A stretch of DNA of 64,000 nucleotides, taken from assembly GCA_021199295.1 (NCBI GenBank), contig JAJQII010000067.1:1-64000 (forward strand), read 5' to 3'. Origin of the DNA: Clostridia bacterium (lineage in GTDB: Bacteria; Bacillota; Clostridia; Christensenellales; Borkfalkiaceae). The translations under genes and the position numbers were made by a program. The stretch's first letter is position 1. Each line of letters starts with the position of its first letter. Positions 57,032-63,990 of this stretch are shown here, piece by piece. The notes beneath the pieces were generated by a model that ran no database searches, had not been told where the DNA came from, and saw only the letters and a list, made by a program, of their open reading frames with translations.

Positions 57032-57946
57032 TCAGTTAAAATTTCTGCAAAACTGTCTGTAATTGTAATCTTTATCGGGGCGGCATAATACGGCGAAGTC
57101 CACGCTTTCGAAGGTGCAGGGTAATTCTTTAAAAGCCCTGTCAAATAAATCGGATACTATAGCGGCGTCGTTGCCGTATATCCCGCAACCAAACGCTCCT
57201 AAAATCAGATGGCGGTAGCCCTGCGAAGCCGCCACAACCAATATACCTTGTATGCGCTTATACAGCATATTTTCGTATTGTTCTTGCGGCATACCTTCCA
57301 AGCCGAGCCGAACCATTGGCGCGGCACAGCTTATAACCGATATGGGGAACGGCTGTAACAGTATTTTTGCCGAGTTATCCTTTATGACCTCAACGTAAGG
57401 GGAGAGTAAAACCCCGTCCGAGCCCATACGTGTTTTAAGCGAGTTGTTATAGTTGTAGTAACTTTTCGCCTGTTCACTTTCCAGCGACAGTAAAAGCGAC
57501 GTCCTGCGGCAAAGTTCTTCTTCCTGGGCGTCAGCGCCTTCCCGCGTATGTCCGCCTGGCGTTGTCGCGCTTGCCATATTTAAGACAAGGATTTTCGGCT
57601 CAACGTATTCGCGTTTTAAACTGTCGTATTTGCGCTGCGCAAGCACAAGTGTATCTATATTTTCACAGCTATATTTGCAGCTTGTGACCTTGTTACCGTC
57701 TGGCAATTCAGCTTTTAATTTGGCGATATCATCGGGTAAAAATACTTTAGCTTCACGCATTAACCCCGCGTTATAGCTGTCCGAACAAATATCTATTGTG
57801 CTGTTGAGTATGTGGATATTTCTTTCGCGGCGCTCCTGCTTTTGCCTTTCGCGCTGCCGTATTTCTTCTTCAGTCAGACCTTTATATTCCGTCTCGCGCA
57901 TCTTTGCCGCAAGGCTTTGCAGCTGCTCTTCAGATAAATCAGCCAT
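57032..57946 (-). CDS. TIGR02452/DUF2263 family protein, bacterial-type PARG-like
   Basis: VLNMASATTPGGHTREGADAQEEELCRRTSLL (GG-x-QEE signature), GVLLSPYVEVIKD, HLILGAFGCGIYGNDA. Confidence 0.88.
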   Translation of the reverse strand: MADLSEEQLQSLAAKMRETEYKGLTEEEIRQRERQKQERRERNIHILNSTIDICSDSYNAGLMREAKVFLPDDIAKLKAELPDGNKVTSCKYSCENIDTLVLAQRKYDSLKREYVEPKILVLNMASATTPGGHTREGADAQEEELCRRTSLLLSLESEQAKSYYNYNNSLKTRMGSDGVLLSPYVEVIKDNSAKILLQPFPISVISCAAPMVRLGLEGMPQEQYENMLYKRIQGILVVAASQGYRHLILGAFGCGIYGNDAAIVSDLFDRAFKELPCTFESVDFAVLCRPDKDYNYRQFCRNFN

Positions 57947-58655
57947 TTTTGCCTCTCAATTCGTCCAGTTTCTTAAATACGCTGTCACATTCTTCGCGGA
58001 TATTCAGCACTGCAACGCTGTCAAAGTAGGTACGCCCGGGGTTAATCTGTATCACGACGGCGTTTCTGTTGCGGCAGCCCCAATACACATCGCCGTAGTT
58101 GCCGCGCGTGCCTATGGCAAGAATCAGATCGGCTTGTGCAATCCATTTTCTTGCTTTTGCCGCGCCCTCGTTCCATATGCCTATATGGCTGTAGAGCGGC
58201 CACGGCAAAATCTCGCCGCCGCAATTTTTACAGCGGGGAAGTTCGTCCTTTTGCCATATTTCGTAGCCGTTATAGTGCGCACTGCAGTTCGCGCAACAGT
58301 TTACTTGAAGACTGCCCTGTATCTCGGCAACGTTTTTAGAACCCGCGATGGTGTGCATGCAGTCCACGTTTGTTGTAATAATGCCAAGCATTTTGCCATT
58401 GTCTTCAAGTTTTTTTAAAGCGTAGTGGCTGTAACTCGGCTTGTACGAAAACATTGTTTCAAGGAAATTGGGTAAAAAAGAACTGTAGCCTTCGCCTCTG
58501 CCCATACCGCGGCTTGAAAAGCGCATCTGCCCGTAAGTTACGCCGCCTCCGCCCACCGAAATTCCCGCGCCCGTGGTGGCTACAATGCGGTGGCTCTGGT
58601 CAATATATTCGGCTAACTTCTGGATAGGATCTTGGTTACTTTTGAATATACTCAT
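57939..58655 (-). CDS. Sir2-family protein with Gln in place of the catalytic His
   Basis: VATTGAGIS, GIITTNVDCMHTIAGSKNVAEIQGSL, CCANC...CKNC, LILAIGTRGNYGDVYW; Q113 codon at 58317-58319. Confidence 0.85.
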   Translation of the reverse strand: MSIFKSNQDPIQKLAEYIDQSHRIVATTGAGISVGGGGVTYGQMRFSSRGMGRGEGYSSFLPNFLETMFSYKPSYSHYALKKLEDNGKMLGIITTNVDCMHTIAGSKNVAEIQGSLQVNCCANCSAHYNGYEIWQKDELPRCKNCGGEILPWPLYSHIGIWNEGAAKARKWIAQADLILAIGTRGNYGDVYWGCRNRNAVVIQINPGRTYFDSVAVLNIREECDSVFKKLDELRGKNG

Positions 58656-58664
58656 ATAACACCT

Positions 58665-59372
58665 TTAACAATTAAAAACTGCATCAAACACTTCGGCGGC
58701 GTCCGCTTTAATATTTAAATCGGCAATGGTATCAAACTGTGTTGTGCCGAGATTTATCTGTACAATTTTTGTGCCCTTTTTCATTTTGCTTAAATATTCT
58801 TCACTGCGGAAGCCCGTCGTGCCTATAATAATTACCAAATCCGCCTCGGCTATCATATCAATAGCCCTTGCCATTGCTTCGCCCGTATTGCCGCCTGCAA
58901 AACTTGAGGGTATTACAGGCGAGCCGCATTTTTCGCAACGGGGCATATGCCCCTTATTCCAGATATTGTAATCATAGTAGCGGGTTTTACAGCCTATACA
59001 CATATTGTCGCCGAAACTGCCCTGAAACTCAGCTACGTTTTTCGAGCCTGCTATAGTATGCAGGCAGTCCATATTCTGCGTTACAATGCCGTAAAGTTTG
59101 CCTTGTCTTTCAAGTTCGGCAAGTTGTCTGTGTACTTTGCTTGGCCCTTTAATAAAGGTGGCGTCTAAAAAAGCATCCCGCATAATCCCATAAAATTTTT
59201 CGGGGTTTTTATTTACGTAATCGGCAGAAAATACCCGCCTCGCGTTCATCATGCCCACGCTTTGTTTTAGCCTGCGCATGCCGTAAAGGTAGGATATGCC
59301 TGCACCTGTAACGGCGACAGTTTTATTGCTGCCGTCAATATATTCTTTTAAAAGTTTATATTCATTTTTCAT
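58665..59372 (-). CDS. Second Sir2-family protein with Gln in place of the catalytic His (start at MKNEYKLL)
   Basis: AVTGAGIS, GIVTQNMDCLHTIAGSKNVAEFQGSF, CIGCK...CEKCG, LVIIIGTTGF; Q codon at 59022-59024. Confidence 0.85.
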   Translation of the reverse strand: MKNEYKLLKEYIDGSNKTVAVTGAGISYLYGMRRLKQSVGMMNARRVFSADYVNKNPEKFYGIMRDAFLDATFIKGPSKVHRQLAELERQGKLYGIVTQNMDCLHTIAGSKNVAEFQGSFGDNMCIGCKTRYYDYNIWNKGHMPRCEKCGSPVIPSSFAGGNTGEAMARAIDMIAEADLVIIIGTTGFRSEEYLSKMKKGTKIVQINLGTTQFDTIADLNIKADAAEVFDAVFNC

Positions 59373-59682
59373 CTTGCACCTCAATTTCTTTTCCGTACCT
59401 GAAAATCTGTACGTAAGGGCAGTCTTTGGGAAGGGTAGGGTTGTACAGTGCGGTAAATAAATTTACTTTACCGCAGTGGTTGCATTTTTTAAATCTGTCT
59501 TGGTAAACACTGCATAAATGCGTCTTTGTGTCAAGGTTTTCGCACGGGCGGTTATAGTAAATTATAACCGATCCGTCTCTGCCAACAGAGCGGCTGTAAC
59601 AGCATTTGCCGCAACAGTTGCATATGCTTTCCCAGTCTTTATGATATTTTCGCCATAGTTTTAGGGCACGGAAAAACCGCAT
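59362..59682 (-). CDS. Cys-rich YkgJ/UPF0153-like metal-binding protein
   Basis: CNCCGKCCYSRS...CENLDTKTHLCSVYQDRFKKCNHCG...CPYVQIF; 11-bp overlap with the following Sir2 start. Confidence 0.75.
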   Translation of the reverse strand: MRFFRALKLWRKYHKDWESICNCCGKCCYSRSVGRDGSVIIYYNRPCENLDTKTHLCSVYQDRFKKCNHCGKVNLFTALYNPTLPKDCPYVQIFRYGKEIEVQDEK

Positions 59683-59739: not shown

Positions 59740-60417
59740 TTATTTTATCCAGTTAAAATTTTCTTTGCCTGCGGCAACTTCAAAGTGGTACATTGCAATG
59801 CCCGTGTTTAAATCGCCGCACATGCCGCCCGTTGTCTGTGCACGCACGCCGCATTTACCTTCCGCATCGACAAGAGTAAATTTGAAGTTCTGCATATTCA
59901 TACCCGTGGGGGCAAGCAGTGCCGCCTTAACGCCGCGTACAAACCAGTCGGGCGGGTTTTCGCTTTCAGAAACCTCTTTAATATCCTTGCATTTGTGCGG
60001 TTTGCCCGTTTCTGCGCCATATCCTATGGCTATGCCGCAAGCAGCTTTTTCGCCGTCGCCTAAGGTAAAGGCATTTTTAACTTTTTTAAAAGCTCCTGCC
60101 GCCCAGCAAGTATTCAAGCCCATCATCTGTGCTTCGAGTACAATTTTCTCGCCGTAATAGCCGAGTTTTTGCGCCGTCTCAACGTCGTCCTTCCCGACCA
60201 CGGCTATGTAATTTTTAACGCCGCCGAAGCCGCATATTTTTGACATTACGCCGCCGAAAGCCTTCTTTTCACCCGTTACAAGCTGAAGGTTTAAGCCGCC
60301 TTCTTTATTGCATTCCGTTATAAGCGCGTTCAGCGCTACAAGTTTGCCTTTTTCGATAGGCTTGTCTTCGTACTTGCGCACGGAATGCCTTTGCTCCATT
60401 GCTTCCATTATATCCAT
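59740..60417 (-). CDS. Nitroreductase-family protein (TM1586-like)
   Basis: EAMEQRHSVRKYEDKPIEKGKL; GLNTCWAAGAFKKVK; AALLAPTGMNMQNFKF. Confidence 0.85.
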   Translation of the reverse strand: MDIMEAMEQRHSVRKYEDKPIEKGKLVALNALITECNKEGGLNLQLVTGEKKAFGGVMSKICGFGGVKNYIAVVGKDDVETAQKLGYYGEKIVLEAQMMGLNTCWAAGAFKKVKNAFTLGDGEKAACGIAIGYGAETGKPHKCKDIKEVSESENPPDWFVRGVKAALLAPTGMNMQNFKFTLVDAEGKCGVRAQTTGGMCGDLNTGIAMYHFEVAAGKENFNWIK

Positions 60418-60464: not shown

Positions 60465-61013
60465 TTAAATGTAGTAAACCCTGTTAGGCTTAACTTCCGT
60501 CTTTTCTTTTTCTTCTGCAGCGTGGCCTAAAATACAAAAACCTATGCCTTCAACTTCTTCCGTAATGCCAAGGTTTGCAAGTATCTCTTTGCCTTCGGCT
60601 GTCTCAAAAACTTCTTTACAGCGGTGTATCCAGCGGCTGTCGATGCCCATACTCCAGGCGGCGTTTAAAAGATTGCCCATGGCAAGACTGCCATCGTATA
60701 CGCTCGTCATAGCCTTTTTTGCGACTACGGCTATAACGTCTTTTGCACCATAGAAGGGATCAAGTTTCATATTTGCTGCGGCGGGGTTGGTTTTTGCGAG
60801 CATAGCTTTCATAAAGTTTGCGTTAAGCTCTGAAAGTTTTGCTACCGTTTCATCGTCCTGCACGACGATAAAAATCGCGTCCTGCGCGTTCATGCCCGAA
60901 GGTGCGTTAAGCCCTGCGGCTACAATCTGGTCAATCTCTTCACGGGAAATGTGTTCGGGCTTAAAACTTTTCGCACTCTTGCGGGTGGTTAAGGTCTTTA
61001 TTGTTTCATTCAT
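60465..61013 (-). CDS. Nitroreductase-family protein
   Basis: TLTTRKSAKSFKPEHISREEIDQIVAAGLNAPSGMNAQDAIFIVVQD; GIDSRWIHRCKEVFE. Confidence 0.88.
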   Translation of the reverse strand: MNETIKTLTTRKSAKSFKPEHISREEIDQIVAAGLNAPSGMNAQDAIFIVVQDDETVAKLSELNANFMKAMLAKTNPAAANMKLDPFYGAKDVIAVVAKKAMTSVYDGSLAMGNLLNAAWSMGIDSRWIHRCKEVFETAEGKEILANLGITEEVEGIGFCILGHAAEEKEKTEVKPNRVYYI

Positions 61014-61041: not shown

Positions 61042-62187
61042 TTACAGCGGTAAATCCTTTTTGGTAAAGCGTATCGCGCCGCCCACGTACGCGGCAACGG
61101 CTATTACGAAAAGTACCACAAGTTTCCATACAAAGGCGTAACTTACGGCATCCGTGCCTATTGTGGCTATAGAGTCTATATCAAAAAGCCCTATAAGCGT
61201 GAGGTTGTTGAATACCCCTAAAATTTCCACGCCCATGCCCATCTGTACAAGGTTATCCGAACCGAACATTCCTAAAAGGGATGCAAGGAAGAACCATACC
61301 GTGAGCCCGCCGCCGAACGCCATAGATTTTCCGCTTCGGTTAAACAGGCAGCTGCCTAAATAGCAGAGCCCCGCCATAGCCTCTATCAATATATACATAC
61401 CGAAGTAGAGCATTATTGTGACGGCGGCATCGGGATCGCCCGAAAGTCCCGCCGACATGGCGATTTTTACGCAGCAGGTTATAGCTATCATTAAAAAGGG
61501 CACGACTATCATATATATCGCCTGCGTTATGACAACCGCCGAACGCTTTGTGGGGGTGGAGAGCACGTATGCCATAGAGCCCCTGTCTACCTGGCTTGCA
61601 ATCAGCGAGTTGCCTACAACCACAATGTATACAAGAAGGGGCAATATGTCCATAATAGTGTAGTACATCTGGTTGAGCATAGAAGACATATCTATGTCCT
61701 CCATATTTTCGAGAAGGTCAGAAGACATTCCCATGCTCTCCATCATAAGTCCCATAAACTCGTTAATATCCAGGGCTTCACCCGTGAATATGCCCGTTTC
61801 ATTCATAAGCGCCCAGTTGTATTCAAAGGTAGAAAGATAAGTTTCGTATGTGCCTGCATCCATCAGAGCCGATGCCGCCTCTTTAAACTGTTCAAGGGAA
61901 TAACCGTCGCCGAGAAGGGCGAATACCGTTGAATAAGCTGTGTCGTACGTGCCTGCCATAAGCCCCTCGTAATCGTATTTCAGCCCGCTCGAGGCTATTA
62001 CGTAAAGGTAGGTCATAAAAGTTGTGGAGGTAGTTGAATCGGTAGTCCCCGACATCATCATATTCCTTGCGATGGATATGACAACGCACATAAGGATCAT
62101 TACTATCATTATAGCTACCGTAAGCACCCTGTTAGAGCGGATAGTCTGCTTCATTAAGGGCCAGGAAAAATATTTTGCCGTCTTCAT
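61042..62187 (-). CDS. ABC transporter permease (ABC-2 type)
   Basis: Six or so TM segments; WPLMKQTIRSNR; SQVDRGSMAYVLSTPTKRSAVVITQAIYM. Confidence 0.85.
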   Translation of the reverse strand: MKTAKYFSWPLMKQTIRSNRVLTVAIMIVMILMCVVISIARNMMMSGTTDSTTSTTFMTYLYVIASSGLKYDYEGLMAGTYDTAYSTVFALLGDGYSLEQFKEAASALMDAGTYETYLSTFEYNWALMNETGIFTGEALDINEFMGLMMESMGMSSDLLENMEDIDMSSMLNQMYYTIMDILPLLVYIVVVGNSLIASQVDRGSMAYVLSTPTKRSAVVITQAIYMIVVPFLMIAITCCVKIAMSAGLSGDPDAAVTIMLYFGMYILIEAMAGLCYLGSCLFNRSGKSMAFGGGLTVWFFLASLLGMFGSDNLVQMGMGVEILGVFNNLTLIGLFDIDSIATIGTDAVSYAFVWKLVVLFVIAVAAYVGGAIRFTKKDLPL

Positions 62188-62206: not shown

Positions 62207-63085
62207 TTAAATGTTATAATCCTTCATAAACACTTCTTCGAGAGTGGTGTGTTTTTCATGTATCTGTATTACGTTGAACCCGCTTAACGCTTTAAACAGC
62301 TGATCCGCGCGTTCTGCGGGTATAGAGGTGAAAGCCGAATTGCCCCGCACATATGCCCCATCGAACGTGTTTTTAAAGGCGTTTGCCGATTTTTCGTTTT
62401 CAAATACTATCTCAAAAATTCTGTCGGAATAATGGCGCAGGGCGTACATATCTATAACGTCTATAATTTTGCCGTCTTTAAGCATTGCCACGCGGTCGCA
62501 CACTTCCTCGAGTTCCTCAAAAATATGCCCCGACAAAAATACCGTTCTGCCCTTTTTCTTTTCCTCGTTTATGAGCTCTATAAACACGTCGCGCATAAGG
62601 GGATCGAGCCCCGTTGTCGGCTCGTCTAAAATCATAATATCCCTTTCGGACATAAAGGCGGCAACGATGGCGGTCTTCTGTTTCATGCCCTTGCTCATGC
62701 GCTTTAAGTCGGCGGTGGTGTCCAGCCCCAGTTTGTCGGCTATATAATTCATACGGGTAAAGTCGGTAATTCCGTAATATTCCGCCTGCAATTTTAAAAA
62801 GTCAGCCCCCGATTTAAGGTTGGGGAAGGCAATTTCCCCCGGGATATAGCTTACCTTGTTCATAAGCTCGGCAGAGTGGGTAACGGGATCTGTCCCGTCT
62901 ATTTCTATTTTGCCGCTGTCGGGGTATACAAAGCCGAGCATATTGCGTATGGTAGTTGTCTTGCCCGAGCCGTTCGTGCCTACGTAGCCGAAAATTTCGC
63001 CCTGCTTAACTTCAAGATTTATATCGAATATGCCCCTGCCGTTGCCGTAGTCTTTGGTAAGGTTTTCAATTTTAATTATACTCAA
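62207..63085 (-). CDS. ABC transporter ATP-binding protein
   Basis: GYVGTNGSGKTTTIRNMLGF, MSKGMKQKTAIVAAF, ILDEPTTGLDPLM. Confidence 0.95.
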   Translation of the reverse strand: MSIIKIENLTKDYGNGRGIFDINLEVKQGEIFGYVGTNGSGKTTTIRNMLGFVYPDSGKIEIDGTDPVTHSAELMNKVSYIPGEIAFPNLKSGADFLKLQAEYYGITDFTRMNYIADKLGLDTTADLKRMSKGMKQKTAIVAAFMSERDIMILDEPTTGLDPLMRDVFIELINEEKKKGRTVFLSGHIFEELEEVCDRVAMLKDGKIIDVIDMYALRHYSDRIFEIVFENEKSANAFKNTFDGAYVRGNSAFTSIPAERADQLFKALSGFNVIQIHEKHTTLEEVFMKDYNI

Positions 63086-63990
63086 GCCTTCACCTCCGCA
63101 AAATGGTGGTCCTGCTCGTAAAAACTCATAAAATAATCTTCTAAGGTGTAAGGTATTTCCACAAAGTCAGCCACGTTGAGCTGCGATAAAATTGATACAA
63201 GCCCGTTTATTTTGTCGTTTGTAAGTTTTACCCTCGCACGCATTTTGCCGTTGTTTTTAGAGGTAAAATTGTAGGGCAGTGCTGTGAATTTTTCGTAAGA
63301 CGCCCTGTCTTTAAAAGTAACGCGGAATATCTTTTCCTTGGTTTTCTTCAGCTCTTCCGCCGAAAATACCGAGACTATCTTTCCGTCTTTTATTATGGCT
63401 ATGCGGTCGCAGCAGGCGTCTACCTCGTGGAATATGTGCGAGGATAAAAAGATTGTCTTGCCGCGAGCCTTTTCTTCTTTTACAAATTCGATAAACTTGT
63501 TCTGCATTATTGGGTCGAGGCCTGAAGTGGGTTCGTCTAAAATGAGTATATCGGGGTCGTGCAGAAATGCCGCTACAACGGCGAGTTTGCGCTTTACGCC
63601 CAGGCTCATCCGCTTTGTCTCCATAGAGGGGTCAAGCTCAAACTTTTCCAGCAGTACTTTTGTGTAGCTGTCGTCTTTGGTCTTGCGCATTTTATTCAGC
63701 ATTGCAAGGAACATTGTGCCCGTAATGCCTTCGGGCAGGGCAATTTCGCCAGGCAGATATCCTATTTCCGTCTGCAGCTCTGCGGCATTGCGGTAGCAGT
63801 CCTTGCCGTCAATTTGCGCCGTGCCGCTCTGCGGGCGCGAAAAGCCCATAAGGTGGCGTATAACGGTTGTTTTCCCCGCCCCGTTAGGGCCTAAAAAGCC
63901 GAAACACTCGCCTTTGGGCACGCTCAGCGTAATATCGAACGCGCCCCTGCCGTGCCCGTAGTCTTTGGTAAGGTTTTCTGTATCTATCAC
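63082..63990 (-). CDS. ABC transporter ATP-binding protein (paralog of preceding)
   Basis: GFLGPNGAGKTTVIRHLMGF, MSLGVKRKLAVVAAFL, ILDEPTSGLDPIM; 4-bp overlap with neighbour. Confidence 0.95.
   Translation of the reverse strand: MIDTENLTKDYGHGRGAFDITLSVPKGECFGFLGPNGAGKTTVIRHLMGFSRPQSGTAQIDGKDCYRNAAELQTEIGYLPGEIALPEGITGTMFLAMLNKMRKTKDDSYTKVLLEKFELDPSMETKRMSLGVKRKLAVVAAFLHDPDILILDEPTSGLDPIMQNKFIEFVKEEKARGKTIFLSSHIFHEVDACCDRIAIIKDGKIVSVFSAEELKKTKEKIFRVTFKDRASYEKFTALPYNFTSKNNGKMRARVKLTNDKINGLVSILSQLNVADFVEIPYTLEDYFMSFYEQDHHFAEVKA

Follow-up and report, generated by a model that had tools for sequence, protein, structure and literature searches.

The SirTM sirtuins provide a precedent for a sirtuin that works with Gln instead of His: Gln137 is needed, and changing it to His abolishes ADP-ribosyl transfer (PMC4518038). 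GcvH-L is the sole SirTM target known so far (PMC11490716). On the side of removal, microbial poly(ADP-ribose) glycohydrolases (PARGs) have been characterized as acting on poly-ADP-ribose strictly as exo-hydrolases (PMC7050489). TcPARG and Fjo-mPARG also remove ADP-ribose from mono-ADP-ribosyl-tyrosine, and this activity raised the question of whether the mark exists in bacteria (PMC11541775).

The locus compared here lies in a stretch of 64,000 nucleotides of a Clostridia bacterium (contig JAJQII010000067.1; referred to as the window). An initial annotation placed four minus-strand genes at 57032-59682, and our analysis agreed with it to the base, including the 11-bp overlap between the YcgN-like and Sir2-A genes, the 9-bp gap between Sir2-A and Sir2-B, and the 8-bp overlap between Sir2-B and PARG. 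The same-strand run is larger than that annotation gave, reaching upstream to 63990 with small gaps and adding two ABC ATPases, a permease, and two nitroreductases to the four-gene core (Table 1). These nine co-directional genes are probably carried on one transcript; a promoter and terminator scan found sites no more numerous than in shuffles. In profile searches, Sir2-A (2.1e-26, 93.4 bits) and Sir2-B (5.2e-19, 69.3 bits) matched PF02146, for which the gathering cut-off is 24, and PARG matched PF10021 (3.7e-23) and TIGR02452 (148 bits; cut-off, 50). The SIR2_2 family, also considered for the cassette sirtuins, gave no match. For the Cys-rich protein, YcgN/UPF0260 models were the sole matches in Pfam and NCBIfam, with scores below their cut-offs; nine Cys residues are conserved in an alignment of the cassette-linked YcgN-like copies.

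Table 1. Genes of the co-directional run and the regulator beside it, in window positions
Gene product	Coordinates	Strand	Remark
PARG-type ADP-ribosyl hydrolase, TIGR02452/PF10021	57032..57946	-	Predicted eraser
Sir2-B, type B1, Gln-type sirtuin (EIQG)	57939..58655	-	Predicted NAD-dependent ADP-ribosyl writer
Sir2-A, type A, Gln-type sirtuin (EFQG)	58665..59372	-	Predicted writer or Sir2-B partner; ATG at 59372, stop at 58665
YcgN/UPF0260-like Cys-cluster protein	59362..59682	-	Optional cassette component
NR225, TM1586-type nitroreductase	59740..60417	-	Often neighbours Gln-sirtuins of types A, B, and D
NR182, nitroreductase family protein	60465..61013	-	Commonest neighbour after PARG
ABC transporter permease	61042..62187	-	Similar permeases in cassettes L086, L090, L119, and L128
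ABC transporter ATPase	62207..63085	-	Co-directional with cassette
Second ABC transporter ATPase	63082..63990	-	First gene of co-directional run
TetR-type regulator	64097-64684 (window-equivalent; L203 598-1185)		Divergent, just outside window

The cassette sirtuins have in common with TmSir2/CobB-type deacylases the fold, the GAGIS and NxD motifs, the HxxAGSxxVxE stretch, and the zinc ribbon, but they differ in the change of His to Gln and in the loss of the GIPDFR, FGE, and GSSLxVxPA segments. Alignment of the window's own pair to TmSir2 confirmed what had first been read from the sequence: ELHG has become EFQG in Sir2-A and EIQG in Sir2-B, and GIPDFR is replaced by GMRRLK and GGVTYG, respectively. 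No His aligns with the catalytic position in either protein, so that both lack the catalytic His of the HG motif, a hallmark of deacylases. The FGE and GSSLxVxPA segments are likewise lost in both, and GAGIS, T(Q/T)NxD, the four zinc Cys residues, and IN(L/P)GxTxFD are kept. The AlphaFold model of Sir2-A is confident (pLDDT 92), and that of Sir2-B is fair overall (pLDDT 85) and weak at residues 1 to 10 and 31 to 60. For both models, the best Foldseek matches were TmSir2 and AfSir2 with NAD or ADP-ribose bound, and SirTM was absent from the top 50 matches. Such proteins might conceivably have retained deacylation, PARG or a Macro protein then clearing the by-product O-acyl-ADP-ribose, since the fold is closest to deacetylases in Foldseek and macrodomains hydrolyse O-acetyl-ADP-ribose (PMC9503650). 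However, neither protein keeps the catalytic His, the FGE acyl-lysine loop, or GIPDFR, and the genome encodes a separate, intact His-type sirtuin (L205); we therefore regard retained deacylation as very unlikely.

The comparison with SirTM drawn in the initial annotation held as an analogy of function and not as close kinship. The window sirtuins form a separate grouping and lack SirTM motifs, and the genome has a SirTM of its own. Asp-to-Gln spacing is 15 in cassette sirtuins versus 17 in SirTM. At the beta6-alpha14 motif they have IGTTGFRSEEY and IGTRGNYGDVY, not GVGx[NT]TP, which appears as GVGGNTP in the genome's true SirTM. Arg192, the partner of SirTM Gln137, has no invariant counterpart in the cassette sirtuins. 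In an unrooted tree, they are closer to TmSir2/CobB than to class M; the SirTM branch lies 3.67 changes per column away, and the Gln types group together with moderate support (94/77). Filing these sirtuins under SirTM is thus ruled out by motif, spacing, and tree position, although the cassette Gln group and SirTM may be sisters at a deeper level, an arrangement with which the unrooted tree is compatible. The cassette sirtuins plausibly work like SirTM, by analogy, without being members of that class.

The genuine SirTM/Zn-macrodomain operon of this genome (G000:C107; L204 2184-5639) includes Rrf2-like, NAD(P)-binding, and PNPOx-ferredoxin genes, and its sirtuin matches S. pyogenes SirTM 5a3a at 1.1e-71. 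The initial annotation had seen no gcvH-L or lplA in the window, and this extends to the whole genome: models for GcvH and lipoate ligase match nothing, although they ring in controls. The target of the genome's SirTM is therefore probably not GcvH-L. GcvH-L/LplA2 was rejected as the substrate system of the cassette as well, since neither was found in the whole genome.

A DNA pattern for the Gln motif, run over GTDB species genomes, returned at least 110 stretches, nearly all from gut Clostridia MAGs; the cassette is real and widespread in these genomes. The 114 Gln-sirtuin loci discussed below come from the pattern matches listed, several sharing one contig and many being cut by contig ends. 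Their sirtuins fall into types A, B1, B2, C, and D, which form their own group in the tree; the types beyond the window's pair had gone unnoticed in the initial annotation. Among the matches listed, a pattern-biased set, Gln occurs in 71/71 type-A reads and in 125/128 B-like reads. One cassette sirtuin (L078 191-946) has Glu at the catalytic position (EIEG) instead of Gln.

Because the DNA pattern selects for Gln, we made two unbiased tests. A family profile that does not require Gln, searched against 391 class genomes, gave eight matches of 320 to 385 bits in four genomes, followed by a gap, with the next match at 182 bits or less. Gln was present in all eight strong matches and His in all 26 of the next-best matches read in these genomes. 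A search that started from PARG found sirtuins adjoining the PARGs closest to that of the window, with Gln in all of those with a readable motif. Across the Gln-sirtuin types, alignments show the Asn and Asp of NxD to be invariant and the Gln nearly so, a pattern of conservation for which binding alone would give no obvious reason. This argues against a reading in which one or both window sirtuins are pseudoenzymes that serve as NAD+ or ADP-ribose sensors and control the cassette enzymes, with PARG acting on adducts made elsewhere, for example by SirTM. In other sirtuins, GIPDFR supplies residues that contact NAD, and its loss here could leave one or both proteins inactive; Sir2-A in particular has lost several catalytic-loop residues (GMRRLK) and kept the nucleotide site, and a SirTM operon is available in the same genome. 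That locus, however, already has its own Zn-macrodomain eraser, and we consider a purely regulatory role rather improbable.

The four-gene order is conserved in same-genus genomes, and the cassette recurs in dozens of other gut bacteria. Among the matches listed, 66 of the 114 loci contain two to four sirtuins, all 61 PARGs found across the 114 loci lie on the strand of the nearest sirtuin, and 31 loci have the same 8-bp sirtuin-PARG overlap as the window. The linked eraser among these listed matches is PARG in 60/114 loci and a Macro protein in 3, and none is a SirTM-type Zn-macrodomain. A PARG lies within 1.5 kb of the sirtuin in 24/41 fully flanked Gln-sirtuin loci versus 0/51 canonical sirtuin loci (Fisher P about 2e-11; given the relatedness of the loci, the duplicate reading of at least two canonical ones, and the truncation of some flanks, this value is indicative only). 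Sequence distances correlate between type A and PARG (r = 0.89), A and B1 (0.80), and A and NR182 (0.49), as would be expected if PARG moves with the sirtuins and the reductase is less closely tied to them. NR225 is a frequent companion of type-D sirtuins, and in three type-D loci (L049, L067, and L141) a Macro-domain gene replaces PARG. Type D accompanied by a nitroreductase also occurs in isolates (Butyrivibrio sp. CB08, L109). The strongest argument from the genomes for a writer-eraser reading is that the predicted writer clade stays in place while the ADP-ribosyl hydrolase beside it can be exchanged. The gene order in those three loci (L049 4295-7660, L067, and L141) is MarR, aldo-keto reductase, nitroreductase, type-D Gln-sirtuin, and Macro. 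Gln-sirtuins with no PARG nearby occur in L095, L057, L110, and L051.

The remaining neighbours, counted over the 114 loci among the matches listed, are chiefly NR182 (42 loci), NR225 (30), ABC ATPase (27), Rrf2 (21), and TetR (16). The CxxC protein, put forward initially as a candidate partner or target, did not prove general: a YcgN-like gene is present in 20/114 loci among the matches listed, nitroreductases are commoner, and this Cys-cluster protein is unlikely to be a universal target. A flavodoxin gene between two cassette sirtuins (L005 991-1446) provides another flavin link. Genes for an AMP-binding enzyme, a GNAT acetyltransferase, and an esterase form a conserved trio downstream of PARG in L059, L103, L113, and L136, and no small carrier protein was seen between the AMP-binding and GNAT genes in L103 and L136. 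Together with the ABC transporter and nitroreductases, such neighbours could indicate that the cassette tailors or detoxifies a metabolite, with ADP-ribose going to a small molecule or nucleic acid and not to a protein. We find this quite unlikely, as AMP-binding, esterase, and GNAT genes occur in 18, 17, and 14 of the 114 loci, respectively, among the matches listed, and none is in the window's run.

The cassette PARG resembles microbial PARGs (D. radiodurans 5zdf and T. curvata 3sig) in its PF10021/TIGR02452 family and QEE motif, which is invariant and kept in the window as Q141-E142-E143. It differs from them in its sirtuin neighbours, in the altered GGG loop of most copies, and in an N-terminal helical extension common to sirtuin-linked PARGs. 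In alignment, the window PARG and most relatives have another residue in place of the third Gly of GGGx{6,8}QEE (PGGHTREGADAQEE), the loop reading GGH in the window PARG. Outside the cassette, the closest PARGs carry a fused ADP-ribosylglycohydrolase domain, as in the single-protein PARG-ARH fusions at L155 599-2647 and L156 868-2349, the latter frame stopping early. A search of the genome for PARPs gave zero matches, but control genomes also gave zero, so this result is uninformative. Many bacterial PARGs have no known writer serving them.

The cassette is patchily distributed, being present in 5/61 same-genus genomes, including the window's own, and in 1/396 genomes of an order-wide sample, namely, the window's genome. 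The window's Sir2-B shares 79% identity with its counterpart from a Ruminococcus-labelled MAG (L083) and 67% with the copy in L077, which has the same gene layout as a same-genus contig (G025:C182); the closer match to the Ruminococcus-labelled MAG points to horizontal transfer. One viral contig (L202 8548-9911; IMGVR_UViG_3300013830_000222) carries a nitroreductase and a type-D Gln-sirtuin, with a tail-like frame adjacent by eye. Patchiness and a viral copy would suit a conflict or toxin-antitoxin module, comparable to the phage sirtuin-Macro type II TA-like systems, in which the sirtuins are NADases or toxins and PARG is an antitoxin or scavenger; sirtuin-Macro TA-like systems and NADase defence sirtuins have both been described (PMC9503650). 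Yet PADLOC families gave one insignificant match and nothing else, the IMG/VR contig is single, the operon is long and includes reductases and an exporter, some loci have no adjacent eraser, and others have multiple sirtuins per eraser, all of which makes a toxin unlikely. A phage-defence module was rejected on the same PADLOC result and the one viral contig, and a plasmid-borne system was rejected because the best plasmid tblastn matches were partial and below 40% identity.

On the evidence of sequence, we think it fairly probable that the operon is a reversible ADP-ribosylation module in a redox or stress context, with Gln-sirtuins as writers and PARG as eraser. Points that weigh against this reading are the GIPDFR loss, the lack of an invariant Arg192 counterpart, the loci with Gln-sirtuins but no nearby PARG, the strict exo-hydrolase activity ascribed to microbial PARGs, and the altered GGG loop. 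Judging from motif conservation and fold, Sir2-A and Sir2-B may bind NAD+ in the normal sirtuin pocket. By analogy with SirTM, they would transfer ADP-ribose to an acceptor instead of deacylating lysine, because Gln now occupies the position of the general-base His and the loop that binds acyl-lysine is missing; the three lost elements (His, FGE acyl-lysine loop, and GIPDFR) suggest that deacylation would not occur. The PARG, translated from an overlapping reading frame, is predicted to remove the ADP-ribose, given its intact QEE motif and the cleavage of mono-ADP-ribosyl-tyrosine by microbial PARGs. Candidate acceptors are the Cys-cluster protein or the nitroreductases, GcvH not having been found in the genome. 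Genes for flavin reductases and an exporter accompany the module, and TetR- or Rrf2-type regulators lie close by; our guess from these neighbours is that the module may act in a redox or electrophile (xenobiotic) stress response. The core idea of the initial annotation, namely, Gln-sirtuin writers, a PARG eraser, and a substrate other than GcvH-L, survives the refutation tests that were run and is partly supported. More tentatively, the cassette sirtuins could be a second, separately evolved class of Gln-sirtuin ADP-ribosyltransferases, usually paired, with a PARG that removes O-linked mono-ADP-ribose (e.g., from tyrosine). If true, this possibility would supply a writer for bacterial PARGs in the absence of PARP, with a substrate unrelated to lipoylation.

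In the open-access papers searched, we found no description of a sirtuin-PARG operon. Provisionally, the cassette seems to represent an undescribed route for adding ADP-ribose and taking it off again. Because candidate writers and an eraser are encoded together in a single compact operon, and GcvH and lipoate ligase were not found in the genome, the targets of SirTM-type sirtuins and the writers for PARGs both become directly testable questions. The cassette also offers a second Gln-for-His sirtuin group to set against SirTM in asking how sirtuins switch from deacylation to transfer. With SirTM of S. aureus and S. pyogenes (PMC4518038, PMC11490716), it has in common Gln for the catalytic His, an adjacent hydrolase gene, a link to flavin oxidoreductases, and an Rrf2 regulator near some loci, a feature also of this genome's own SirTM locus. 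It differs in often having two to four sirtuins per locus with CobB/TmSir2-like sequences, in having a PARG or Macro protein as eraser and not the Zn-macrodomain of NF003163, and in having no GcvH-L or LplA. Sirtuin-Macro type II TA-like systems (reviewed in PMC9503650) likewise place a sirtuin writer beside an ADP-ribosyl hydrolase, whereas the cassette has paired Gln-sirtuins, a PARG eraser, and a long operon with reductases and an ABC transporter. Overall, the cassette is best filed among the systems that combine a sirtuin with an ADP-ribosyl hydrolase.
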